Shown: piece after piece, positions 2,061 through 57,845 of the stretch | How the letters are laid out: every line of letters starts with the position of its first letter | How positions within the stretch are numbered: the stretch's first letter is position 1 | Assembly (NCBI GenBank): GCA_949152475.1 | Contig: OX424560.1 | Location: 43,292,719 to 43,356,718 of the forward strand | Direction of reading: 5' to 3' | From: Terebella lapidaria | Lineage: Eukaryota > Annelida > Polychaeta > Terebellida > Terebellidae | DNA length: 64,000 nt | Program-made: the position numbers and the translations under genes | The notes under the pieces: generated by a model | Databases searched by the model: none | Told to the model about the DNA's origin: nothing | The model's input: the letters and a program-made list of their open reading frames with translations, nothing else

Positions 2061-3203
2061 CCTTTGGTCCGATAACCTATTGGCATGGCGTTGCGTCCGT
2101 CGTCCGTCCGTCCGTCCGTCCGTCCGGCGTTAACATTTTTATCTTCAAAGTTAACGATCGAATCTTTCTGAAATTTTGCACAAAAATGCCTAAAAATATT
2201 TTGAGAAGGAGGTATTTTTTTGTTTTTTGATTTTCGCATTTTTTTCAAAATGGCGGCCGTTTTTGTCGAAAAACGCTCAATTTTGGACTTTGACGGTATG
2301 CTGAAATTTGTCATGACCTTGAACTTGACCTTTGATTTCATTTTCAAAGGTCAGAGCACAAAATGGCTAATATCTCGCTTATTATCAACTTCACAGCTTG
2401 GGAATGTTGACCTTTGAGGTCATTTTAAAGGGCAAAGCATAAAATGCTTAATATCTCACTTATTATCGACCTTACAGCTTTGCAATCAATTGAGCTTGTA
2501 TAGGAAATGATATATACTTAATATTGTCATCACCTTGAATTTGACCTTTGAGCTCATATCAAAGGTCGGAGCACAAAATGGCTAATATATCACTTATTAT
2601 CGACTTTGCAGCTTGGGAATCAATTGTGAACATATAAAAAACGTATATACTGAATGTTGTCATGACCTTGAATTTGACCTTCGAACTAATTTTCAAGGTC
2701 AGAGCACAAAATGGTTAATATCTCGCCTATTATCAACTTTAAAGCTTAGGAATCAATTGTGGACATATAGGCAGTGATAATACACTTAATATTCCCGTGA
2801 CCTCTTAAATTTCACTTTTGATCTCATTTTTAAGGTCAGAGCACAGAATGGCTGATATCTCGCTTAATATCAGCTTTGCAGTTTAGGAATTAATTGTGAA
2901 CATATATGAAACGATATCTGCTGATTGTTGTCATGACCTTGAATTTGACCTCATTTTGGCTTTGACCTTTGGTCCGATAACTTATTGGCATGGCGTTGCG
3001 TCCGTCGTCCGTCCGTCCGTCCGTCCGTCCGGCGTTAACATTTTTATCTTCAAAGTTAACGATCGAATCTTTCTGAAATTTTGCACAAAAATGCCTAAAA
3101 ATATTTTGAGAAGGAGGTATTTTTTTGTTTTTTGATTTTCGCATTTTTTTCAAAATGGCGGCCGTTTTTGTCGAAAAATGCTCAATTTTGGACTTTGACG
3201 GCC
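1394..3203. repeat. 905-bp tandem segmental duplication
   Basis: Positions 1,394-2,298 and 2,299-3,203 are almost identical. Each copy contains several family A units, the GATAACC(T/C)ATTGGCATGGCGTTGCGTCCGTC start of the family A element and the (TCCG)n microsatellite. The same 79-residue fortuitous ORF appears twice with an offset of exactly 905 bp (1,991 and 2,896). Near identity implies a recent duplication or an assembly artefact. Confidence 0.85.
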
Positions 3204-6689: not shown

Positions 6690-7540
6690 ATAGGAATCAG
6701 TTGTGGAACATTGAACATTGAGATTCATATAGCGCCTTTTCAGGTTTAAAACTTATCAAAGGCGCTTTTGAATAAGTGAGTTTTGTTAGAATATCTCCCG
6801 AGAGTCACATTGGCGCAGGTCAATCGACAGACAGTTCCACAGTTTTGGAGCAACAGCACTGAACGCTCTGTCCCCACATGTACGAAGTAAAGGTTGGTTT
6901 TCGGGACATCCAACAACAATTTGTCGCTTGACCGGAGGCTGCTACCTGGTTTGTAAGGAGTCAGAAGGTCGGCGATATATAATGGGGATTCTCCATGTAG
7001 AGCTCGCCATACCAGGAGCAGAATTTTAAAATCGATTCTTTCACGAACTGGAAGCCAATGCAAATCTTTGAGGCCAGGGGTGATGTGGGCAGACTTAGGA
7101 ATCTTACGAATCGTCCTGGCAGCAGCATTTTGAACTTTCTGAAGTTTTGCCAACGACAAAGAGGTTATTCCAGCAAGCAAGGAGTTTCCGTTGTCCAGTC
7201 TGGATGATATGAAAGCATGGATCAGTGCTTGTGTTGCACTCTTGGTCAGACATCGTCTGATGTTGTTTATGTTCCGTAGGTGAAAGTATGCCGCCGAACA
7301 AATGCGCTTCACTTGTGATTCCATGTCTACCGACTGATCAACCACGACACCAAGGTTACAGGCAAGTGTTGATGCACTGACTGTGCTCTCTCCGATACGG
7401 ATTTGGGTTTCAGTGACATTCTTACGTTGCTGTTTGGATGACATCACTAGAAACCCAGTTTTTTCGTCATTCAACTTCAATTTGTTAAATGACATCCATT
7501 CACGTATTTCAGATATACACAGTTCCACTCGGTGTATGCT
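6690..7540 (-). mobile_element. 5'-truncated CR1/L2-type LINE copy
   Basis: The element consists of the ORF fragment above plus a 3' untranslated tail of about 55 bp. 5' truncation at about 7,540 is the usual result of incomplete reverse transcription. The tail motif GCGCTATAT is shared with the SINE 330 bp away, which supports a SINE/LINE partnership for 3'-end recognition. Confidence 0.8.
6746..7540 (-). CDS. LINE reverse-transcriptase ORF, C-terminal fragment (CR1/L2 type)
   Basis: About 263 residues of open frame correspond to the end of the ORF2 protein of a CR1/L2-group non-LTR retrotransposon. That protein copies the element's RNA into DNA at the target. Seen here are the conserved late-RT and post-RT motifs: WMSFNKLKLNDEKTGFLV, a CNLGVVVD-like block, LIHAFISSRLDNGNSLLAG, the LQKVQNAAAR block, and LHWLPVRERIDFKILLLV followed by ALHGESPLYI. 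The catalytic YADD part and the endonuclease are absent because the copy is 5'-truncated near 7,540, where it abuts family B DNA. The surviving frame has no stop and ends in SAFDKF. The 3' tail on the minus strand reads AAAAGGCGCTATATGAATC followed by CAATGTT repeats near 6,700. Confidence 0.9.
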   Translation of the reverse strand, partial: SIHRVELCISEIREWMSFNKLKLNDEKTGFLVMSSKQQRKNVTETQIRIGESTVSASTLACNLGVVVDQSVDMESQVKRICSAAYFHLRNINNIRRCLTKSATQALIHAFISSRLDNGNSLLAGITSLSLAKLQKVQNAAARTIRKIPKSAHITPGLKDLHWLPVRERIDFKILLLVWRALHGESPLYIADLLTPYKPGSSLRSSDKLLLDVPKTNLYFVHVGTERSVLLLQNCGTVCRLTCANVTLGRYSNKTHLFKSAFDKF

Positions 7541-8329
7541 TTATGGTTTCAGCAGATTTTTTTTTCTTCTTTTTTTTCTTCTTCCGCCGTTTTGGTTTCC
7601 GGACGATAACTTTAGATTGCCTTGATGGATCCTTGTCAATTTTTCACCACTAGTCAGAAATGTTATGTGGAAGAACACTATATTTTTTTTAGCCTGCTCC
7701 GAGGTCCGTGAGGTCCATGAGGATGAAATCAGGGCTAATTTTGAGACTTGGTTTCCGGACGATAACTTGAAAAATATTTACGCAATAGTTGCAGAACTCT
7801 GCATGGAGGTTCATATGCCACCAGGGAAGAACCCTATTGATTTTGGGATCGATCCGTTAAACGACCTTTGACCTAGAGGTCAAAATATTTTTTTGCTGAT
7901 TCATCCTTGAGGCTTCCTGCATATCTCAGAAACCGTGCGTCGTAGAGCCAAACGGACGTTATTTTCGGACTCCTCGCCCTAGACAAACATCTTTAAGGGG
8001 TATCATTTTTTTTTATCCAGCTCCGAGGTCCGTGAGGATGAAATCAAGGCTGATTTTGATACTTGGTTTCCGGACGATAACTCGAAAAATATTCAGGCAA
8101 TAGTTGCAGAACTTTGCATGGAGGTTTATATACCACCAGGGAAGAACCCTATTGATTTTGGGATCCATACGTCGAACGACCTTTGACCTAGAGGTCGAAA
8201 TAATTTTTTGCTGAGTCATCCTTGAGGCATCCTGCATATCTCGGAAACGGTACGTCATAGAGTGAAACCGACGGTATTTTCGTACTCGTCGCCCTAGACA
8301 AACATGTCTAAGGGGTATTATGGATGAAC

Positions 8330-9279: not shown

Positions 9280-10752
9280 TACGGTGGCTTATTTCTGCCA
9301 CAATTAGATTAATTTCTGTAAGAAAAGATATCAGATATAAATATTTCAATTACACACGGAGCAAATGTTTCTTTCACGAAGCAAACGTTTCCTACACGAA
9401 GTGAATAGTTTCCTATGCGGAGCAAATGTTTCCTTCACGAAGCAAACGTTTTCTTCACGAAGTAAATAGTTTGCTTTGCAAAGTAAATGTTTTCTACGCG
9501 AAGCAAACGTTTCCTACACGAAGCAAATCATTTGCTTCGTTTAGAAAACATTTGCTTCGCGAAGGAAGCATTTCCTTCATGGAGCAAACCATTTGCTTCA
9601 TGTAGAAAACGTTCGCTACGTGAAGGAAACCTTTGCTCCACCTAGTAAACTATTTGCTTTGTGTAGAAAACGTTTGCTTCGTGGAAGAAACATTTGCTAC
9701 GCAAAGCAAACTATTTGCTTCATGAAGGAAACGTTTGCTTCGTGAAGGAAACATTTCCTTCGTGGAGCAAACCATTTGCCTCGTGTAGAAAACGTTTGCT
9801 TCGCGGAGGAAACATTTGCTACGCAAAGCAAATAATTTGCTTTGTATGGAAAACGTTTGCTTTGCACAGGAAACATTTGCTACGCCAAGCAAACTATTTG
9901 CTTCATGACGAAAACGTTTGCTTCGTGAAGGAAACATTTCCTTCGTGGAGCAAACCGTTTGCTCTGTGTAGAAAACGTTTGCTACGCGAAGGAAACATTT
10001 GCTATGCAAAGCAAACTATTTGCTTCGTGAAGAAAACGTTTGCTTCGTGAAGGAAACATTTGCTATGCAAAGCAAACTATTTGCTTCGTGAAGAAAACGT
10101 TTGCTTCACGAAGGAAACATTTGCTTTGCAAAGCAAACTATTTACTTCGTATAGAGAACGTTTGCTTCGCGAAGGAAACATTTGCTATGCAAAGCAAACT
10201 ATTTGCTTCGTGAAAAAAAAGTTTGCTTCGCGAAGGAAACATTTGCTTTGCAAAGCAAACTATTTACTTCGTGTAGAAAACGTTTGCTTCGCGAAGGAAA
10301 CATTCGCTATGCAAAGCAAACTATTTACTTCGTGTAGAAAACGTTTGCTTCGCGAAGGAAACATTTGCTATGCAAAGCAAACTATTTGCTTCGTGAAGAA
10401 AACGTTTGCTTCGCGAAGGAAACATTTGCTTTGCAAAGCAAACTATTTACTTCGTGTAGAAAACGTTTGCTTCGCGAAGGAAACATTTGCTATGCAAAGC
10501 AAACTATTTACTTTGTGTAGAAAACGTTTGCTTCGCGAAGGAAACATTTGCTATGCAAAGCAAACTATTTGCTTCGTGAAGAAAACGTTTGCTTCGCGAA
10601 GGAAACATTTGCTATGCAAAGCAAACTATTTACTTTGTGTAGAAAACGTTTGCTTCGCGAAGGAAACATTTGCTCCGTGTGTAATTAAAATATTTATATC
10701 TAATTTTTTTTTACAGAAATTAATCTAATTGTGGCAGAAATGAGCCACCGTA
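9280..10752. mobile_element. TIR element with TACGGTGGC ends and 6-bp target duplication
   Basis: The element is 1,473 bp. Its inverted ends of about 80 bp begin TACGGTGGCT(T/C)ATTTCTG and read on to ACACACGGAGCAAATG. CGTTGT flanks it at 9,274-9,279 and 10,753-10,758, and joining the flanks restores a family B monomer. The interior is the 61-bp array described next. No transposase is seen, so it is non-autonomous. The ends resemble those of the element at 59,660-60,459. Confidence 0.85.
9355..10680. repeat. 61-bp self-complementary minisatellite
   Basis: Units read approximately CGTTTGCTTCGCGAAGGAAAC, ATTTGCTATGCAAAGCAAAC, TATTTGCTTCGTGAAGAAAA. Short palindromes (GCTTCGCGAAGG, TTTGCATAGCAAA-like) recur in each unit, so both strands can form hairpins. 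Three units equal 183 bp, a multiple of three, which keeps long frames open on both strands (222 residues on plus at 10,060-10,728; 119 on minus at 9,650-10,009). These periodic frames are best read as by-products. Confidence 0.85.
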
Positions 10753-46691: not shown

Positions 46692-47342
46692 AACTAGACG
46701 TCAAGGCCTAAAGGCCTTGGAGGCATTTCAGGGTGATGCTCGAAAAAAGACGAGATGCTGACTCAGCAAAAACATGATGAAGCTCCCAATGTTTTGCTCT
46801 AGGTCGCACCGTTTCTGAGGTATCGATGAAAATGAAAAAATGCCGACTCTGCAAAAAAAAATTCAGGTTATGGTCAAAGTTCATCCCCAATACCCCTTAG
46901 ATATGTTTGTCTAGGGCCACGAGCCCGAAAATAACTTCCGTTTCGCTCTACGATGTACAGTTTCCGAGATATCGACGAAAAAGAAAAATGCCGACTCGGC
47001 AAAAGAATTTCAGGTCAAGGTCAAAGTTTATCTCTAGTGCCCCTCAGATATGTTTGTCTAGGTCCGTTTCGCTCTACGATGTACAGTTTCCGAGATATCG
47101 ACGAAAAAGAAAAATGCCGACTCGGCAAAAGAATTTCAGGTCAAGGTCAAAGTTTATCTCTAGTGCCCCTCAGATATGTTTGTCTAGAGCCACAAGTCCG
47201 AAATCAAAGCCTGTTTCGCTCTATGAAGCACAGTTCCCGAGATATCGACGAAAGCAAAAAATGCCGACTCAGCGAAAAAAGTTAAGGTCAATGTCATTGG
47301 TTATCCCTAATACCCTAAGACATGTTTGTCTAGGGCGACGAG

Positions 47343-47515
47343 TGTTGAACCCACAAATGTTAAAACGCCCACAAATGTGAAAACCCACAAATGTGAAAAC
47401 AAATCACCCACAAATGTGAAAATATCATTACCCACAAATGTGAAAAAAAATCCACCCACAAATGTGAAAAAAAAATTTAACCACAAATGTGAAAACGGTT
47501 TTTGTCATTTGCCCA
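47343..47515. repeat. Left terminal inverted repeat of the 9.9-kb element
   Basis: Seven CACAAATGTG blocks are spaced by A-rich linkers of 6-16 bp (AAAACGCC, AAAACC, AAAACAAATCACC and others). The last ends in GAAAACGGTTTTTGTCATTTGCCCAC, which also occurs at the inner edge of the right repeat. Confidence 0.85.
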
Positions 47516-47872
47516 CAAATGTGAAAATCAAACACAGCATTAGGTTCCACATGAGGAATGTCTTTTATTGTTATGTCTTTTTACGGAACCTTGTTCTGAT
47601 AACCCATTGCATGGCATTGCGTCCTTCATCCGTCGTCGTCCGTCATACGTCTTACATTTTTATTTTTATCTCGAATTTATTGTCGAATCTTTTCGAAATT
47701 TGCGCTAAAATGCCTAAGAATACAGGGAAGCACTTTTCTGAAAGATTTTTTGGGCTACCAGACCTTTGGTCCGATAACCTATTGGCATCGCGTTGCGTCC
47801 GTCGTCCGTAAACAATTTTATCTTTACATTTTTGTAACGAATGTGACTTCGTTAAGTAGCAACCAGGTTAGT

Positions 47873-48035
47873 ACCGTCATAGCATGGTTAGTATACATCA
47901 CATCACATATCACACATCATATAATGAATAGTTATATTAATGTCGCCGTTGCCGGAGGCCCGAGTACACCATACATGTAACTTGGGTGCCCGGTGCCAAC
48001 AGCGTGGGCTTGTTGTTCGTCCGGCCTTGCTGATG
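47873..48035 (+). repeat. Direct repeat of about 165 bp, copy 1
   Basis: TACCGTCATAGCATGGTTAG, CATCACATCACATATCA, ATATAATGAATA, GTTGTTCGTCCGGCCTTG are found again in the same order at 49,536-49,697. It is not recognised otherwise. Confidence 0.75.
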
Positions 48036-48039
48036 GTCC

Positions 48040-49535
48040 TGACACGGAGATGGAACTCCGGACAGTCCGACAGTCTACCAGAGCCTGTACGCACAAGATC
48101 CCCGGTCATGATTTCATGCTCTTCATTCCGCTAAGAAACGTTAAACGGGGAAAATTTTGGAGTTGGAAGAATCGTACAGATAATAAAATATCATTCTTAC
48201 AAAGTACTGTGCAATGCTGACCTCGTATAACATGCCAAATTACGTCCAAAGTTGCAAATTTCCTGTTTTATGCGAAATTTAACATAGGGGTAGATTACCA
48301 ACTTTTTTCTGTTTTCAAGATAGAAGTCTGAAATTTGGTGAAAAAATACGGTTTTATGCCAAATGGAAACAAACAAAATTTCAAATTGATCCAGCCATCC
48401 TAAACGAAGTTATGGCCAAAAATCATATGAGGTTTTGTGTTGAACTTGACTTTACCCTCGAATGTACAGTCATTCAGGCAGTTCCGAGTAACTTCGTTAT
48501 ATTTACGAGAATGGACACACAGTTCATGACAACACCCGCATGTTTGCGACTCGTTCGTGAAATATCATCGGTTATCAATTGAAACTAACGAAGTGTATGT
48601 CGGTAAAACATAGAATGCTCGGAGAAATCTTTCTTTATTGTTACACCATTAAACCAGCTGTTTTAATCGAGTATTTCACTACCTAGGAGGCTTTTTGTGT
48701 TTTTTTGCATATCATTAGGGAGAAAACCTGCACACGCGTTAAATCATGAGGAACTATGTGAGCGTTGTCGGGGATGGTGGCGCTGGAAGTGTGTATATGG
48801 AGATGTTTAAAGAATGATTTGAGGCTGCACTTGCTGCAAGAACTGACGATACTCCTCATTTATCATTATCATCAATATATTCCTCCCAATCTTAATAACT
48901 CTGAAATTGGCAATACTGAGAACTTCATATGTCTTTTGCAGAGAAGTTCACCAAGTGAACACAGTATCTCTTTAACATGAATTCATTTAATCAATTGAGC
49001 ATTGAAACTGGTGCAAGATTCGCATTTAAAAATGAAATAACCCAACTTCAACAAAATATTTACTCATGCACATACGCGTAAAGTCCTCACGCACATCGCC
49101 TAAAATATAGCAAATAAACAAATGATACATTGAACCTAAATTTGTGCCACCTGCGACCGATGTGAAACATTTTGAAGACAGGCACATGTGAAACCCATAC
49201 TATCACTATCATAGAGCTCGCATTTTAACTACATTCCTGCCGATACATAACAATTTCAACCGCAAACCCGAGGAGAGTGGCTGTCGAAGTAATATTGACA
49301 GATATTTTGCAGCCAAAGGTATCGCTACACTGGCTTATTCGCTAACAACCATGAATATGTGTAATGTTCCGTGCAGACCCCAATACGACATTTCAAAACG
49401 GTAAAAATAGCGAAATTGTATGTATTTCCATCTCACGGTCACTCTGAGGCTGCCATTTCCTCTCGAATAGCGCGTAAAACTCACCATTTTACGTGGCACT
49501 CCGTGAATAACGCGTAACGCTTAGCCATCGTGAGG
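48040..49535. other. Unassigned stretch inside the element
   Basis: A dispersed repeat (GTTATGGCCAAAAATCATATG and neighbours, 48,285-48,440) matches 30,185-30,345. Apart from this nothing is recognised; the small ORFs have no motifs. Confidence 0.5.
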
Positions 49536-50405
49536 TTATTACCGTCAAGGCATGGTTAGTAGACAAACATCACATCACATATCATATAATGAATAATAAT
49601 AGTAATGTTGCCGTTACGTGAGGCCCGAGAACCATGGGAGGGGTCCCCGGAACCACAACGCTTGGGCGTGTTGTTCGTCCGGCCTTGTTGATCCTTGGGC
49701 ATCCTGAGCCCATTTCCTTGAAAAATAATTCTACTTCCGGTTTGGTGTCATTTGACACCACAGGTGTAATCAAACCACACCTAGTATATTGCCAATTAGC
49801 CCTACGGGTTCGAAAATAATGTCCTTTTTGCTCTACGATCAATATTTACTGAGATATGGAGGTTTTTATGGAAAAGTGGGTGATAATAGGGGAAAGTATC
49901 AATTTTTGGCCTTCAAACACACCAAAACGGCCTAATAACTGATCCTTGGGCATCCTGAGCCCATTTCCTTGAAAAATAATTCTACTTCCGGTTTGGTGTA
50001 ATTTGACACCACAGGTGTGATTTGGTACCAAACCACGCCTAGTATATTGCCAATTAGCCCTATGGGTTCGAAAATAATGTCATTTTTGCTCTACGATCAA
50101 TCTTTACTGAGATATGAAGGTTTTTATGGAAAAGTGGGTGATAATAGGGGAAAGTGTAAATTTTTGGCCTTCAAACACACCAAAACGGCCTAATAACTGA
50201 TCCTTGGGCATCCTGCGCCCATTTCCTTAAAAAATATTTCTACTTCTGGTTTGGTGTAATTTGACATCACAGGTGTAATCTTATACTAAACCACACCAGT
50301 ATATGGCCAATTTGTCATACGGGTCCGAAAATAACGTCCTTTTTGCTCTACGATCAATATTTATTGAGATATGAAGGTTTTTATGGAAAAATGGTGATAA
50401 TAGGG
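49536..50405 (+). repeat. 240-bp tandem repeat, 3 units, distant family B relative
   Basis: After the second 165-bp direct repeat (to 49,697), units begin GATCCTTGGGCATCCTGAGC and contain CCGGTTTGGTGT, GACACCACAGGTGT, GGGTTCGAAAATAATGTCCTTTTTGCTCTACGATC (read in parts) and GAGATATGGAGGTTTTTATGG. The CGAAAATAA(C/T)GTCC, GCTCTACGA and GAGATAT blocks are those of family B monomers, showing common origin. Confidence 0.8.
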
Positions 50406-50507
50406 GAAAGTATTAATTCTGCAATAGGTTTTCAGAACAAAGGTCGGTAACCTAAAAACATTCCTCATGTTGAAGCTAATGTTGTGTCAGATTTTCACAT
50501 TTGTATA

Positions 50508-51356
50508 ATATTCCGAATATTCGCCACCCTTCCCAGGTATATTAGGAGTGGATAAAGTTGAAGATGACCTGGAAGGAAGGTGGCTTAGCGACCTTTGATA
50601 TCGTTAATAACTGTATTATCAGCTTTTTAGGGTCTTCACATGCTCTAAACACGTTTTATGACGTAACCTTTACTTGCGCTTGAGGTACAGACCAGAGGTC
50701 AAACGTTGCCACGTGATTCCTTTTTCTGATTTAGCTTGCATAAATAACTCCTGAGACTATTTCCATAAGGAAATTAAATGTCATTTCCACACCGAAATTG
50801 CTCCCCTTCCAGTTATGGATTGAGAGGTCGTTTTAGGCACATACGATCGACTAAAACAGAATTTTATATATGTGATGTTGTACTGAAGATAACACCAGAC
50901 ATTTGGCTGATATGTGGTTTCTCAAACCACAGATAGAAAATATACTGCCGACCTAATTCCTAAGGAGATCAATCTTTCCTCAGTTAAGCTCATCCTCCTA
51001 TCCCCGACACAAGGTTATTCAAACTCCTCAATGAACAGGTAATACTCGAGAGAAACGATATTCATTGGTTTGATCTCGGTAGTAAATATCCATACTTGTA
51101 TAGTGTCGGTCCAACAATACCGAATGTTTTCCTTCTGTGAAATGAGTGACCAATACGCGGTATTTATAACATTGGCCATCTGAAATCATAAGGGGCTAAA
51201 TTGAAAAGTAGCCTATCTCAAAATAACGTGACCTTTTCCTCGCACACATACCGGTACCCTAATTCCGCATGACATCCTGTAAATTGCCAAACATAATGTT
51301 ACATGTTATTTTTTATTTTTAAATTTGTTTATCTACTTATTTTATTATTATTAAGA
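50508..51356. other. Unassigned stretch 3' of the recombinase gene
   Basis: No gene or repeat is recognised. On the minus strand this is the 3' side of the recombinase; an AATAAA-like signal (TTTATT on plus near 51,338) could serve polyadenylation. Confidence 0.4.
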
Positions 51357-52682
51357 TCAATTGTTCTTACGGCCTCCCTGTGCTGAGCTCTCGCATTCTA
51401 GTCTCTTTTCTATGGCCTCTCCAGCTATGCCTGCCAATCTTTCCTGCTGCCTCATCTTAGAGGACTTGGTGTATTTTTTCACCATCTCGTCCGATCGCCA
51501 GCCTACATACTGTTTTATGTCCTGTTGTGACATGCCGTTATCCAAGAGGTTTGCCGCGCAGGCCGCCCTAGCGCCATGTATTGTCTCTCCGTCATCCATT
51601 CCTAACTCCCGGAGGTGTTTGTGTAGTCTAGCATTCATCATGTCCGCAGTAACCGGCCTATTTAAAATTTCATCTTTCCCCACTGCCTTGGGGCGAAAGA
51701 AGTAACCCCCTTTCAATAGTATCCCTAGCTGAGTTGCCTTATCAATGTAGCTCTGTATAGCCCTGGTTGGGCACGCCTCCGTGTTGCCTGATGGCATCAG
51801 CACTACCTGTTTTGGGGGGCCCCTGGTGATAGTTTTTCCCACTGTCAGGGATATTGTGACCTTTCCTCCCCCCTGGTGAATCTGCTCTGTTTGCACTGCC
51901 CCTAAATCACTGCCCCTATCACCCGTGTGACATAACACAAGAAAGTATGTTTTATCCCTGATGAGTAAGTACTGTTCCACATCACTCAGGGACTGTCGGC
52001 GCGCTGTCCTATAGTCTATTGCGCGGGCGATTTTGATGACCTTGTCTATATGAAGGGGTGTAGCCGAAGTTACTGGGACCATCGCGCGCGCCTGCTCGTG
52101 CTTCACAGCCCTGACATAATCCTTTACGGCCTGATTGTCCACGGGGTTCCCCGTTCTGTGAAATGTGGTCCAGGGACCGGTTCGACCAATGTCCCTCATG
52201 ATAGCCCTGATTTTCCCACACATTGCATCTACTGAGCCTGCCGCCAGCCTGACAGGGCAACCACAATCTGTGATATTCTTTGATCCCTTTTTGTCACAAG
52301 ATAACACGTGAACCTGTGTCTTTCCCCCTTTGTCCTTCCAAACTAGAAACCGTTTCACATCATATGGGGTGGCGTCTTGCAATGTGGTGCCTTTCCCACA
52401 CTGCGCGAGAAATGTGTCCATTTCCTCGGCTAAGCTTTGCTTTTGGGTACTGTATCTAGTGCCTTTTTGTATGTCGTCTAATTGCTTTATTCTTGTTTGA
52501 ATTTTGTTTTCGTCTATATCCAGAGTCTTCGCTACTGCCTTGTCCCCTGTAACATGCGCTGCTTGGTTCTGTTGGCCCCCGCACTGCTGACAGAAGCACG
52601 CCCCTTGGTCGTTTTGATAACCGCACTGGCCACATGCTTTAGCCCGCACCACGTACAACTTGACACCCTGCGGTTGGGACTC
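51357..52682 (-). CDS. Tyrosine recombinase with zinc ribbon and ALOG-like domain, exon 2
   Basis: A 441-residue open exon follows the acceptor TTTTATCCAG|GAG at 52,683. Numbering from its first codon: a zinc ribbon with C17, C20, C29, C31 and C34; an ALOG-like DNA-binding domain at about 78-202 with GKTQVHVLSC, C140-x-C142, PVRLAAGSVDAMCGKIRA and NPVDNQAVKDYVRAVKHEQA; and a tyrosine-recombinase domain at about 208-420. Catalytic residues read as R256 (HTGDRGSDLG), H369 and R372 (IHGARAAC), W395 (YVGWRSDEM) and the nucleophile Y404 (VKKYTKSS). Such enzymes cut and rejoin DNA through a covalent 3'-phosphotyrosine. The H-x3-C...C-x-C ribbon insertion is as in plant ALOG proteins, a family reported to descend from DIRS1-type recombinases. 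No reverse transcriptase lies nearby. The gene looks whole. Confidence 0.85.
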   Translation of the reverse strand, partial: ESQPQGVKLYVVRAKACGQCGYQNDQGACFCQQCGGQQNQAAHVTGDKAVAKTLDIDENKIQTRIKQLDDIQKGTRYSTQKQSLAEEMDTFLAQCGKGTTLQDATPYDVKRFLVWKDKGGKTQVHVLSCDKKGSKNITDCGCPVRLAAGSVDAMCGKIRAIMRDIGRTGPWTTFHRTGNPVDNQAVKDYVRAVKHEQARAMVPVTSATPLHIDKVIKIARAIDYRTARRQSLSDVEQYLLIRDKTYFLVLCHTGDRGSDLGAVQTEQIHQGGGKVTISLTVGKTITRGPPKQVVLMPSGNTEACPTRAIQSYIDKATQLGILLKGGYFFRPKAVGKDEILNRPVTADMMNARLHKHLRELGMDDGETIHGARAACAANLLDNGMSQQDIKQYVGWRSDEMVKKYTKSSKMRQQERLAGIAGEAIEKRLECESSAQGGRKNN

Positions 52683-52717
52683 CTGGATAAAATATTCAAT
52701 ATATATATATTTTTTTT

Positions 52718-52751
<34 letters not shown>

Positions 52752-53152
52752 CGTCATTAGTCGGTTTATGCCCTACATGCTTCGATCATTTGCCTATCGT
52801 TCATACTGTTCTCTCAATGTGGTGCCTTTCCCACACTGCGCGAGAAATGTGTCCATTTCCTCGGCTAAGCTTTGCTTTTGGGTACTGTATCTAGTGCCTT
52901 TTTGTATGTCGTCTAATTGCTTTATTCTTGTTTGAATTTTGTTTTCGTCTATATCCAGAGTCTTCGCTACTGCCTTGTCCCCTGTAACATGCGCTGCTTG
53001 GTTCTGTTGGCCCCCGCACTGCTGACAGAAGCACGCCCCTTGGTCGTTTTGATAACCGCACTGGCCACATGCTTTAGCCCGCACCACGTACAACTTGACA
53101 CCCTGCGGTTGGGACTCCTGGATAAAATATTCAATATATATATTTTTTTTTT

Positions 53153-53189
<37 letters not shown>

Positions 53190-53252
53190 CGTCATTAGTC
53201 GGTTTATGCCCTACATGCTTCGATCATTTGCCTATCGTTCATACTGTTCTCT
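52380..53252 (-). repeat. 435-bp tandem duplication of the exon 2 start
   Basis: Positions 52,380-52,814 and 52,815-53,252 are near identical, differing mainly in the length of an oligo-T run. The copied unit holds the intron end with its poly-T, the splice acceptor and about the first hundred codons of exon 2 including the zinc ribbon. The acceptor is thus present at 52,683 and 53,118. Near identity implies a very recent event or an assembly error at the poly-T. Confidence 0.9.
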
Positions 53253-53254
53253 CA

Positions 53255-53348
53255 TGGCATTTGGCTAGATTTACGGTAATTGAGGCACTGTACCTATATG
53301 CCTCATCCGAGTATTATTTGTTTTGTTTTTGTTGTTTGTTTCCGCCTT

Positions 53349-53382
<34 letters not shown>

Positions 53383-53732
53383 TCGTGCTCATTGGTCTGC
53401 CCATTTAGGTCTAAATTCCCAAACATTGTTTGGTTTGTGCTTGTTTGGTTTTCTTTCTCTTTTTTGTTGTTGTTGTTGTTGTTGTTTCAATTCCCTCGTG
53501 TTATTTGTTAATAGTAGGCCCTATGCTGAAATACTTGTATTGTTTTATTTTTAGTTTTAATTCATCAATGTCCCTTTCCCAGAATTATCCGGCTATATGG
53601 TTACTGTATTTTGAAACATGCTCGCATTTCTCTGTGCACGTAACCCTAACTGTAAAACATGTTTTAGATGACATGGTCTTCACTAATCCTACTGTAGCCA
53701 GTGACCTATTACCGGTAATCGCGTAGGCCTAC
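53255..53732 (-). other. Intron of the recombinase gene
   Basis: Between the donor CCTAAG|GTAGGC at 53,732 and the nearer copy of the acceptor. It contains a poly-T run of about 30 (53,350-53,380) and (TTG)n. The ORFs on the plus strand across poly-T (108 and 62 residues) are fortuitous. Confidence 0.6.
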
Positions 53733-54050
53733 CTTAGGTTTCACCGTCGTTTTTTCTGCCTCCTGACGCGCCCTCTTCACTGGTGGCTCGACCCTCGTCT
53801 CCTCCTGCTGGTCGCCCGACAGTTTTCCGGCGTGGCTTGCCAATACTACCAGCTCTTCCCTTGACCCTTTTAAGCCCATTAGAGAGATACACTCCTCGGC
53901 ATCGACACCCCAAGTATTAAGTTGCTTTTTCAGCTCGGGCTCCGACCATGTCTGGAGTGGCTGCATCTCATGCACGCTGAATAGGTTGTCTTCCGGCACA
54001 TCCGGTTCTTCCCTGAATGCTTTCATTAACTTTAGCAAATCACACTTCAT
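53733..54050 (-). CDS. Tyrosine recombinase gene, exon 1 (SAP-like segment)
   Basis: The ATG at 54,050 (AACAAAATGAAGTGT) opens 106 codons ending CCTAAG|GTAGGC, a good donor in phase 0, which fits the phase 0 acceptor of exon 2. The peptide begins MKCDLLKLMKAFREEPDVP. Residues about 36-75 (SEPELKKQLNTWGVDAEECI then LKGSREELVVLASHAG) resemble a SAP-type DNA-binding helix-turn-helix pair. A basic PPVKRARQE near residue 90 could be a nuclear localisation signal. Assignment to the recombinase gene rests on strand, phase and splice signals; an independent small gene is possible. Confidence 0.6.
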
Positions 54051-54426
54051 TTTGTTTTTGTTTGTGGCAACTTTTCCGTACTGTGTGCCAAAAGTCTACT
54101 GCCTGGATCTTGCGCGATCTGTCAGTCTTAAAGTGTGTTCTGGCGCGGCGGTGCTAGGCCTCCATCCACACCCACCAATCATGTGCCAAGGATATATCCC
54201 AATCGCCTCTCACTGCCTAGCCTATGCCGGCCCCTTAGGCTGTTACTGCTCTGTTTACTGCCTTGGCTACCATATCGCCCCTCCCTGGCACCCGGTTTCT
54301 ACACTGACAAGGCTTATCTATATACCTGCACATGCATTGTGTAGGCCAGGGGTTGGTTTCCCCTTCATTTTCGCACAGATTTGACTAAGCATTGTGAATT
54401 AATAGCACACCCTCTGAGCTTATGGG

Positions 54427-54553
54427 TCATAAACGACCATCTGGATTCTGGATAAACGGGTCACCGTAGGTCATCTTTTGATGCACTCTCAGACTTGCCG
54501 GACCGTTCTTGTCAGTGATGAAAGGCCCCTTGTTGTGATTTGGTTGTAAATAC
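54427..54553 (-). CDS. Possible terminal exon of an unknown gene
   Basis: After ATAAAAACAG|G on the minus strand an open frame reads YLQPNHNKGPFITDKNGPAS, then LRVHQKMTYGDPFIQNPDGR, L and stop. It has no ATG and is not periodic. A start-like exon with the consensus donor GG|GTAAGTAGAG lies upstream on the same strand (MSRQYRDIIRRIFTNGVHTMG, 56,687-56,626), but their connection is only a guess. I do not recognise either peptide. Confidence 0.25.
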
Positions 54554-54559
54554 CTGTTT

Positions 54560-55960
54560 TTATTCTCAACTGTCTTCCTTTCCACACTACATGTGGCCTA
54601 GCTGCTGATTGCCCATTCCACTATCTTTTCGTTGATCGTTGGTATAATGTGAACTCTAATTGGCGTCGTATTTTCATTCCTGTCCTTCTCTTTTCAATTT
54701 TTTTTTTTTTTTTTTTTTTCATCCCTCTCGAAGCTGGATGTATAGTGGTATTGTATTTTCTAGACCAGCTGTGATCCCAGAATCATCTGTTACAAATTAT
54801 GAACCCTTTCACTGCGTCACTTATTCTTTATTCATTCATGGTGTTTTCTTCCCCCTTTGCCCCACTCCGTACATTAGAGAGTCAGACGCCCTTTCCAAGT
54901 AATCGGGAATGTACGAGATTCATTGCGACTATATTCAATTCTCTTGCTATTTACCTGTTATTTATTGTTATTGTGCACGACAATAGCCGTCCCCTCAAGA
55001 TAATCACTAATGTTCCGTTGTACATGGTCATAACGGCTAGCAATTTTGACACTTTTACTTCGTGTATCAGTGCATTGTCATTATCGGTTGACTCGTGCGT
55101 CTATTATTATTGCTGCGTTTTTTTATTTATTTTATCTAACCGTTTTAACTCTTTTGCACATTAGAACACTGTCGTTCCCTAAAGTTATGTGACCACGCAT
55201 ATGGGAAAAGAGAACGTCACCACAAATAAGGAGTACCGGTAGTCAAATTGGTTGCTTTTCTTCCGACTACCTGCATCGATTCGCTCATGCCCATATCAGC
55301 ACCTCAATATAACAATTGTACAAGCAACGTACAGTGGAGATAATTATTTACAGCGGAAATATGTTGGAATGGGAAAGTTGTGTGATTAATAATGAATGAT
55401 GAATTTAATGGATGAAATTGTTGACTCTTCTCCATATAATATGTTGCTCGTGATTCTCACTGAGATGAACATATCTATAGATCCACGGTTTTAATGTTGC
55501 CCAATGTTTTGAATCAAACCGATAATTCATGGCGTCTATTTTTTTGTAACAGCCATATTTCTCATCACCCTTATATCGGACAACTATAAAAGTTCTGCCA
55601 ACATCAGAGGTTTATCTGAATATTTTTGCTGCGCTGCTGCATGCGTATGTATTACGGTACACCATCCAAAATATCGCAAAGCTCTCAGGGTATTTGCGTT
55701 TATTCACCAGATTAAATGAAAACTTATTCGAAACAATCATGAATATTATTTTTGAACCTGCTGTGATCCTTTTGCTGAGATTACTATATTTAAAACAAAT
55801 GATAGCAAGGCCGGGGCCGCCCATGCCTACCGTCCGTGGGTCTGTTTTTACCCAAACTTAGGAGACCAGCGCGATGCGTTGGTCAATAAGAACTAACTTC
55901 TAGACACAACTGGGAGGGGGAAGATGGAGGCAGACAAGTAATTTTTCACTTTTTATTTAG
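54560..55960. other. Unassigned AT-rich stretch
   Basis: A poly-T run lies at 54,698-54,719. The 121-residue plus ORF (54,799-55,164) and the 70-residue minus ORF (55,612-55,824) have no recognised motif. Nothing else is supported. Confidence 0.45.
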
Positions 55961-56081
55961 TTTTGTTTGTTTGTTTGCTTGTGCTTCACTGTCTCTGTCT
56001 CTCTCTCTGTCTCTGTCTCTCTCTCTCTCTCTTCTTTCTCTTCTTATCTTTTCACTTTGGCTTTTTCACTCTTTCTCTCTA

Positions 56082-56121
<40 letters not shown>

Positions 56122-56590
56122 CATTGTATTATCTTTTCTCTTTTGTTCACTTTCATTTATTTCTTTGCTTTCTTTCTTTTTCCTCTTTCTTTTCTTTTCT
56201 TTTCTCTTCTCTTTTCTCTTTCGTTCACATTTACTCCTTTGCTTTCCCTTTTTTTTTTTTTTTTTCACTTTTTTCTTCTCTTTGTCTCTCTCGTTTTTCA
56301 CTGCTTTTCTTTTTTACTTTCTTTTAACTTTTTCACTTTCAACTTTTCTTTTTTTCTTTCTTTCCTTTTTCACTTTCATTTTCTCTTTCGTTCACATTTA
56401 TTTCTTTGCTTTATTATTATTATTATTTTTTTTTTTTTTTTCTTTTATTTATTCATTTTATTTTATTTTTTTATTTTTTTTTTTCACTCTTTCAACTTTT
56501 TTTTTTTTTTTTTTTTTTTTTTATTACTCTTTTACACTCGCCTTTACTCTCCATTTCTTAATTTTCAATCTTTCGCTCTTCGTTAATTTT
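55960..56590. repeat. Long polypyrimidine tract
   Basis: About 630 bp composed almost only of T and C on the plus strand, including (TCTCTG)n/(TC)n, several poly-T runs of 15-40 and CTTTTC units. The ORFs of 118-209 residues in three plus frames are low-complexity Phe/Leu/Ser readings. The purine strand could support triplex (H-DNA) formation. Confidence 0.9.
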
Positions 56591-57033
56591 TACTAGTTGC
56601 GTCTACATACATATACTCTACTTACCCCATTGTATGTACTCCATTCGTAAATATCCTCCGTATAATGTCCCGGTATTGCCTACTCATGATACTTGACACA
56701 AAATCATATGCCCACGCGGTACATTATATATTTCCCAATCCTCATTTTCCTTTGTATTTGAGCAGACAAACGTATGTTGTGGGATTTTGTTTGTCACTGT
56801 AATTGCTTGCCTTGTTGTTTCCCTTCATTGGACTTGGTTATTTCCCCGAAAATTTACCATTTAGCTAGCTACTATGAGATGACTAGATCCAAAGCCTGTG
56901 ACTGTTGTATCCCTTGCATGAAATAGGAGGTTCCCTCACTGCCATGAGATGCGTGTTGCCTGGTCCCTGCTTATTCAGCGAATGGCTGTTATACCTGGGT
57001 CCCTGAAGGTGGCAGCATAATCGGAATAGTGGG
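56591..57033. other. Unassigned stretch before the right TIR
   Basis: Contains the weak exon candidate at 56,626-56,687 on the minus strand. No other feature is recognised. Confidence 0.35.
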
Positions 57034-57262
57034 CAATTGACAAAAATCGTTTTCACATTTGTGGTTGATTTTTTTTTTCACATTTGTGGGTGAAGTTTTT
57101 TTCACATTTGTGGGTGAAGATTTTCACATTTGTGGGTAGTTGACAAAAAACGTTTTCACATTTGTGGTTGATTTTTTTACATTTGTGGGTGATTTACAAA
57201 ATTTGTTTTCACATTTGTGGGTTTTCACATTTGTGGGCGTTTTAACATTTGTGGGTTCAACA
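57034..57262. repeat. Right terminal inverted repeat of the 9.9-kb element
   Basis: Eight or nine CACATTTGTG blocks with T-rich linkers mirror the left repeat, with one extra TTCACATTTGTGGGTAGTTGACAAAAAACG-type unit (read in parts). It ends GTGGGTTCAACA. Confidence 0.85.
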
Positions 57263-57845
57263 GACGAGTCCGAAAATAACGTCCGTTTCGCTCTACGACG
57301 CACCATTTCCGAGATATGGATGAAAAGGAAAAATGCCGACTCAGCGAAAAAATTTAAGGTCAAGGTCAAAGGTCATCCATAATACCCCTTAGACATGTTT
57401 GTCTAGGATGATGAGTCCGTTTATAACGTCTGTTTCGCTCTACGACGCACCGTATCCGAGACATGCATCAGTGCCTCAAGGATGACTCAGCTAAAATAAT
57501 TTCGAGCCCTAGGTCAAAGGTCGTTTGACAGATCGGCCTCAATCGATAGGCTTCTACCCTGGTGATATATGAACCTCCATGCAAAGTTCCACAATCATTT
57601 CCATGATACTTTTTGAGTTATCGTGCGGAAACCAGAAACAGTGATTTCATCCTCACGGACCTCGGAGCCGGCTAAAAAACGATAGGCTTCTTCTACACAA
57701 CATTTCTGACCAGCGGTGAAAATTTGGCGAAGATACATGGAGGCAAACTGAAGTTATCGTGCGGAAACCAAAAAGTGAAAAAAAAGAAAAGAAAAAAAAT
57801 TTTTTTTTTGACAAAACCATAAAGGCATTTCTGCTGAAATGCCTT

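Follow-up and report, generated by a model that had tools for sequence, protein, structure and literature searches.

An ALOG-type tyrosine recombinase gene of Terebella lapidaria, very probably carried by a Crypton-like element nested in the terminal inverted repeat of another transposon

Cryptons, in the broad sense, are DNA transposons that encode a tyrosine recombinase (YR) and no reverse transcriptase (RT). Direct repeats of 4-6 bp can mark their ends, animal Cryptons without terminal repeats have been reported, and one published composite of Crypton and mariner, MarCry-1_FO, has terminal inverted repeats (TIRs) and target site duplications (PMC3212892). DIRS retrotransposons have inverted terminal repeats, though no target duplications (PMC3266345). 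The published animal fusions of an ALOG domain with a recombinase have all been assigned to DIRS1-like retroposons (PMC3537659). Here we describe a YR gene with an ALOG domain in the annelid Terebella lapidaria, located in a stretch of 64,000 nucleotides (contig OX424560.1, positions 43,292,719 to 43,356,718; hereafter the window) that lies on contig C6 of a 762-Mb genome (40 of 616 candidate matches scored). The gene lies between TIRs flanked by 6-bp duplications. The original prediction, made from the window alone, took it for either nested cargo or part of a new chimeric element, on the premise that neither Cryptons nor DIRS have TIRs with such duplications; the reports cited above show that premise to be mistaken for the TIRs of DIRS and too narrow for Cryptons.

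Comparison with related copies indicates that the locus is very probably a nested set, in which a TIR transposon copy lies in satellite DNA and a Crypton-like ALOG-YR DNA element lies in the right TIR of that copy. The nested element (Table 1) was inserted between CACATTT and GTGGGC, within one CACATTTGTGGG unit of the right TIR, and no target duplication is present; GT alone is common to both junctions, so that no duplication extends beyond 2 bp. In relatives reaching that point, position 3162 of the window element is directly followed by position 9687. Of the 20 copies of the TIR element fetched as 10-kb stretches, 15 show the empty site CACATTTGTGGGC unbroken ahead of a fixed anchor, followed by CAATTG in 14 copies and by CATTTG in L040. 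Two of the other five (L046, L050) gave fuzzy matches only, and three (L035, L043, L045), whose fetched stretches do not show the right TIR end, gave no match. The nested ends, searched in the window's orientation with up to 3 errors, were found in none of the 20 copies, a search limited by the six stretches that do not show the right TIR end.

These results bear directly on the alternative of a new chimeric TIR transposon to which the recombinase gene would be integral. The gene does lie between TIRs with a 6-bp duplication, the same arrangement as in MarCry-1_FO (PMC3212892), but four copies of MarCry-1_FO share the composite, whereas here the recombinase element is a later insertion seen in one TIR copy. 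The empty site in 15 relatives, the separate ends of the nested element, and the contrast between 353 exact TIR ends in the genome and one full-length identical recombinase gene listed, the window's own (91 of 188 candidates scored), leave the chimeric element with next to no probability, and it is deemed refuted already. The nested-cargo half of the original prediction is borne out. TIR copies without the recombinase, and a recombinase bounded by its own distinct ends, had been named there as outcomes that would tell against a single element, and both were observed as far as the copies compared can show. The recombinase lies in, and probably drives, a second and smaller mobile element, not the outer transposon. 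For both elements, the ends are readable to nearly single-base precision. Nesting, an ordinary process, explains a recombinase inside TIRs; it is the nested element itself that is unusual.

The ends of the nested element are inverted, TATTCCGA on the left and TCGGAATA on the right, beside the 6-bp spacer GTATAA. The GT of this spacer also occurs in the target, which leaves the exact cut ambiguous by 2 bp. Genome matches to the left 200 bp were found on C13 (two), C4 and C1 (two pieces at one place), and matches to the right 200 bp on C14, C13 (two), C4 and C1 (two places). The left ends in the window, at both C13 places and on C4 read GTATAA and then TAT[C/T]CCGA; at C1:62035757 the spacer and arm contain one mismatch, and the left end at C1:64470 is GTATAATACTCCGA. 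The right ends read TCGG[A/G]ATA in the window and on C14, C13, C4 and C1:36636, and the sequence beyond them differs, with the exception of a copy at C13:7559234 that is joined to a left end. The original prediction had also proposed the CACAAATGTG units of the TIRs as possible binding sites; one unit was indeed entered, but the flanks of the relatives read differently, which speaks against these units as the specific target of the recombinase. A genome-wide pattern count gave six left ends at up to 3 mismatches, window included (one in the control), the weakest of which may be chance, and five at no more than 1 mismatch, again with the window included. Right ends numbered eight at up to 2 mismatches, window included, with none in the control. 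On C4, both nested-type ends lie 2.1 kb apart.

A short relative helps to define the element. The 587-bp element at C13:7559232-7559818 has its terminal 80 bp (86%) and 70 bp (84%) in common with the window element and elsewhere matches it only in T-rich and short stretches. Because only the ends are common, both nested boundaries are fixed independently, and the 587-bp element would fit a non-autonomous derivative of the nested element. Its right end abuts the left end of the next copy, as TAATCGGGATA-GTATAA-TATCCCGATTA, and this head-to-tail join consists of perfect 11-bp inverted arms around 6 bp. A second head-to-tail join, in which an imperfect right end adjoins a left end, is located at C1:64469.5 kb. 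Sites of tyrosine recombinases typically comprise inverted repeats of 11-13 bp with 6-8 bp between them (PMC3212892); judged by its layout, the 11 + 6 + 11 core is a candidate site of this kind. Two further relatives were observed. One, at C13:7532440-7559231, appears to span 26.8 kb; its exon 1 and its recombinase exon are separated by sequence that includes a DIRS left end at 7551740. The other, L055 (C14:29302900-29303180), includes a 100% identical copy of the final 89 bp of the nested element and is cut off on its left side.

Table 1. Features of the nested element and of the outer transposon, in window coordinates.
Feature	Position	Strand	Basis
Nested 6,526-bp tyrosine-recombinase element	50503..57028	.	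empty site and ends
GTATAA, 6-bp spacer at left junction	50503..50508	+	
Left inner arm TATTCCGA of recombination site	50509..50516	+	
Right inner arm TCGGAATA of recombination site	57021..57028	+	
Inferred exon 1, 106 aa, donor CCTAAG/GTAGG	53733..54050	-	
Inferred exon 2: zinc ribbon, ALOG, tyrosine recombinase (R, HxxR, Y motifs), acceptor ATCCAG/GAG	51357..52682	-	
435-bp tandem duplication in gene, copies 99% identical	52380..53254	-	
Left 6-bp target duplication GACGAG, outer element	47337..47342	.	read in sequence
Outer TIR transposon copy, left part, up to nested insertion	47343..50502	+	
Left TIR, made of CACAAATGTG units	47343..47542	+	
258-bp tandem repeat, outer element, about 2.9 units	49689..50418	+	
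Right TIR, outer part	57029..57262	-	
Right 6-bp target duplication GACGAG, outer element	57263..57268	.	read in sequence

The recombinase open reading frame (ORF; 51357-52757, minus strand) matches Phage_integrase (PF00589, E=8.8e-14), in agreement with the tyrosine recombinase originally predicted, and also ALOG (E=2e-22). A zinc ribbon before the ALOG part is weakly matched (DZR, E=0.027 over the full ORF, which does not reach the cut-off). The closest solved chain by sequence is that of a plant ALOG protein, LSH3 (8p5q, E=3.9e-9). The donor of a putative upstream exon joins the acceptor of the recombinase exon in phase, which would yield a 547-aa product containing the motifs TGDRGSD, HGAR and GWRSDEMVKKY, which are taken to be the catalytic motifs of the family. 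The first 104 aa of the predicted product have no Pfam match at E<=10. Nine places besides the window match exon 1. In five of them, an ALOG-YR exon of the same orientation follows 0.2-0.5 kb downstream. In a sixth, the C13 ALOG-YR follows after 13 kb, and a DIRS end intervenes. This co-occurrence of exon-1 homologues with ALOG-YR exons supports the two-exon model. The other three, 51-52% identical, are arranged in tandem at C8:4343971-4345127 with no ALOG-YR listed nearby, and it is possible that this trio represents a captured or domesticated domain. The 435-bp duplication in the window's gene copies the acceptor and the start of exon 2; the second acceptor, at 53118, creates a decoy splice path to a truncated product (211 aa with a provisional donor).

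Other ALOG domains occur in the genome. Four, at C1:50615, C11:38029, C12:816 and C16:3856 kb, all score 101.5 bits, and the equal scores suggest that a second ALOG-YR family is present here in recent, nearly identical copies. These ALOG-YR copies are 41-45% identical to the window's protein. Four stretches of viral contigs matched a pattern, and none of the four encodes a relative of the recombinase. When the ALOG-YR was compared by BLASTP with the C-terminal piece of the DIRS recombinase, a 45-aa match at E=0.004 was all that resulted.

The nested element was compared with both groups of described elements. With an RT from a DIRS of this genome as query, tblastn of the nested element returned a single 10-aa match at E=9.0, against E=0 for the positive control, and no RT family is among the Pfam matches of ten chosen nested-element ORFs. 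Self-comparison with the low-complexity filter on revealed only the 435-bp tandem duplication, so that the element has no 159-bp terminal direct repeats like those of Ectocarpus and no long inverted ends of the DIRS type. The YR has the R-H-R-Y residues, and together with the absence of a detected RT, the proposed circle and the short non-autonomous relative with the same ends, this corresponds to Cryptons in the broad sense (PMC3212892). The differences are that the terminal direct repeats of non-animal Cryptons are absent, only GT being common to the two junctions, and that the recombinase has a zinc ribbon and an ALOG domain and matches Phage_integrase, not DUF3504; the latter, which defines CryptonA, is not among its Pfam matches at E<=1. 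The nested element also has a clear inverted-arm core, unlike the animal Cryptons reported to lack terminal repeats (PMC3212892). We conclude that it is very probably a Crypton-like DNA transposon with an ALOG-type recombinase and, by sequence, not a CryptonA.

The nested element could instead be a decayed ALOG-type DIRS retroposon that lost its RT and was moved by an RNA-derived circle. The order zinc ribbon (weak here), ALOG and YR is that of the DIRS1-like retroposons of marine animals and Ectocarpus, the group in which the published animal ALOG-recombinases are all placed (PMC3537659), and ALOG domains are present at other sites in this genome. However, neither RT nor RNase H was detected in the window's nested element, the long repeats expected from such elements are missing from the self-comparison, and short inverted arms with a spacer stand in place of the 159-bp direct repeats of Ectocarpus. 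In addition, where ALOG-type DIRS1-like retroposons have an inactive N6-adenine methylase, the predicted product starts with a 106-aa exon in which Pfam recognised no family. An in-phase intron would not survive an RNA intermediate, and the one predicted here, if real, argues against such an intermediate. On this evidence a decayed retroposon is unlikely for the nested element; other ALOG-YR loci of the genome could still belong to retroposons.

ALOG-type YRs may drive a separate lineage of animal DNA transposons that uses no reverse transcription and a core with a 6-bp spacer, a proposal that we advance only tentatively. In that case the ALOG developmental regulators of plants could trace back to a DNA element of a cut-and-paste-like kind instead of a retroposon, and it is in this way that the nested element bears on the origin of a plant regulator family. 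It is unusual for an ALOG-type recombinase to lie in an element of low copy number whose two ends are defined, whose recombination core can be read and in which no RT is detectable. The readable junctions make the site of the recombinase directly testable in vitro. Among the listed open-licence literature, no paper besides PMC3537659 joins ALOG and Cryptons, and the excerpt of PMC12477816 contains nothing on ALOG.

Both ends, the empty site, the head-to-tail junctions, the short same-ended relative and an open gene with catalytic motifs can be read directly at this locus and its relatives. The history that we propose for them has two steps. A non-autonomous TIR transposon copy would first have entered a satellite monomer, generating 6-bp duplications, and the 6.5-kb Crypton-like element would then have entered one unit of its right TIR. 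To move, the recombinase would bind the inverted arms at both nested ends and recombine these ends across the spacer GTATAA, releasing a circle whose junction reads arm-GTATAA-arm. The circle would then recombine with a loosely defined target, the left junction keeping the spacer of the element and the right junction that of the target. With one spacer per junction, no target duplication would form. Bacterial conjugative transposons of the Tn916 and CTnDOT type join their ends over a short spacer, tolerate a heterologous spacer and make no duplication. The nested element may work alike, a likeness that implies no kinship; the host genome here, of 762 Mb, contains DIRS elements, and an intron appears to interrupt the gene.

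Several points weigh against this account. The nested family is rare, and its five left ends at no more than 1 mismatch provide few sites from which to judge a target preference. The window's was the one empty site available for comparison, and the C14 copy has no listed left end, its right flank starting with GTGG as in the window and then differing. The 435-bp duplication may impair the window's copy of the gene. The RT query was taken from a DIRS of another family and was complemented by Pfam on chosen ORFs, and a badly decayed RT could be missed by both. Finally, the circle, the order of strand exchange, the splicing and present activity are all inferred.

The outer element ends in TGTTGAACCC and GGGTTCAACA at window positions 47343 and 57262, and without the nested element measures 3,394 bp (47343..50502 plus 57029-57262). 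Its TIRs, its GACGAG duplications and the restored satellite monomer are present as originally described: when the flanks are joined without the element, an unbroken satellite stretch results, and of the 12 rows shown for the joined flanks, 8 align with sites elsewhere in the window at 74-85% over 200 bp or more. The outer element is a copy of a TIR DNA transposon inserted in a satellite monomer. The outermost 62 bp of its two arms are 100% inverted. A 9-bp piece found in the right arm and in relatives is missing from the left arm, which has additional gaps relative to the right. The inner part of the right TIR lies at about 50454-50502, across the nested element from the outer part. The number of units of the 258-bp tandem repeat differs among copies of the outer element.

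The exact 35-bp TIR end occurs 353 times in the genome (175 + 178, the window's two included) and its reversed sequence not once, so the TIR ends are not chance. Contigs C1-C3 have 90 exact ends, of which 10 are unpaired and the rest make up 40 plus-minus pairs with lengths of 1.2 to 19.5 kb. Duplications were scored at both ends of 37 elements, namely 17 elements, among them the window copy, with both ends visible in fetched sequence, and 20 of C1's 27 pairs. The 6-bp duplication is exact in 24 elements and has one mismatch in 5 more; six of the other eight have 5- or 7-bp duplications by eye, and two (L034, L040) have no match. As a control, the left and right flanks of different elements gave 11 exact matches in 1332 comparisons. 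The exact duplications tend to a palindromic pattern, with a central CG in 17 of 24. Among the five duplications with one mismatch, three pair CG on one side with CA on the other, the change that methyl-C decay would produce; in the remaining two the mismatch lies elsewhere.

Long TIRs with fixed-length duplications in many copies are the features of a TIR (DDE) DNA transposon. In ten chosen ORFs of L031, L032 and L035, copies no longer than 10 kb, no Pfam match exceeded its cut-off; one match at E=0.0025, below its cut-off, was treated as chance. A frame of 563 aa in L050 lies outside this set. On the strength of its ends and duplications, the outer family appears to act like a DDE-type transposon with its own insertion rule, and the window's copy, with no recognised transposase, is probably non-autonomous.

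One group of TIR copies, 7-9 kb in length and not represented in the window, carries a DIRS retrotransposon. Self-comparison of one such copy, L039, places the inverted ends of the DIRS at about 203-373 and 7667-7863 and a complementary region at about 7514-7613. An RT domain is present (RVT_1, E=1.6e-23), while the YR pieces have no Pfam match, and the site GCATTA/GGTTCC is empty in the window copy, L031-L034, L036, L037 and L049. Inverted ends, an internal complementary region, RT and duplication-free insertion at a few matching bases together correspond to a DIRS1-like element. The idea that the TIR family is itself a DIRS with 6-bp duplications was dropped, as the DIRS in L039 has its own ends and an empty site exists.

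A related alternative would do without an unseen transposase: many of the outer TIR elements contain a DIRS, and it is this DIRS that would mobilise the TIR elements. At least 22 of the 40 exact TIR pairs on C1-C3 hold a DIRS, and its exact left end lies 203-210 bp inside an exact TIR end in 23 of 33 cases on these contigs. Furthermore, four copies (L038, L041, L046, L047) have common internal deletions (6002>6443 and 6829>8238) and different flanking duplications. Yet DIRS are reported to insert without target duplications (PMC3266345), the deletion 6829>8238 has removed the DIRS right end from these four copies, the DIRS-free TIR copies L008, L017, L033 and L049 also have 6-bp duplications, and no exact TIR end occurs within 1 kb of 10 of the 33 exact DIRS left ends. 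Mobilisation by DIRS is thus highly unlikely. The divergence of DIRS and TIR across 15 copy pairs is not significantly correlated (Spearman 0.39, p = 0.15), and co-amplification is accordingly claimed from the shared deletions only. Common deletions with different duplications imply that the four copies were copied as TIR units after the DIRS had entered. Beyond the nested element, the genome also holds a DNA transposon family that carries DIRS in at least 22 of its 40 paired copies on three contigs, and genome-wide there are 185 DIRS left ends at up to 3 mismatches.

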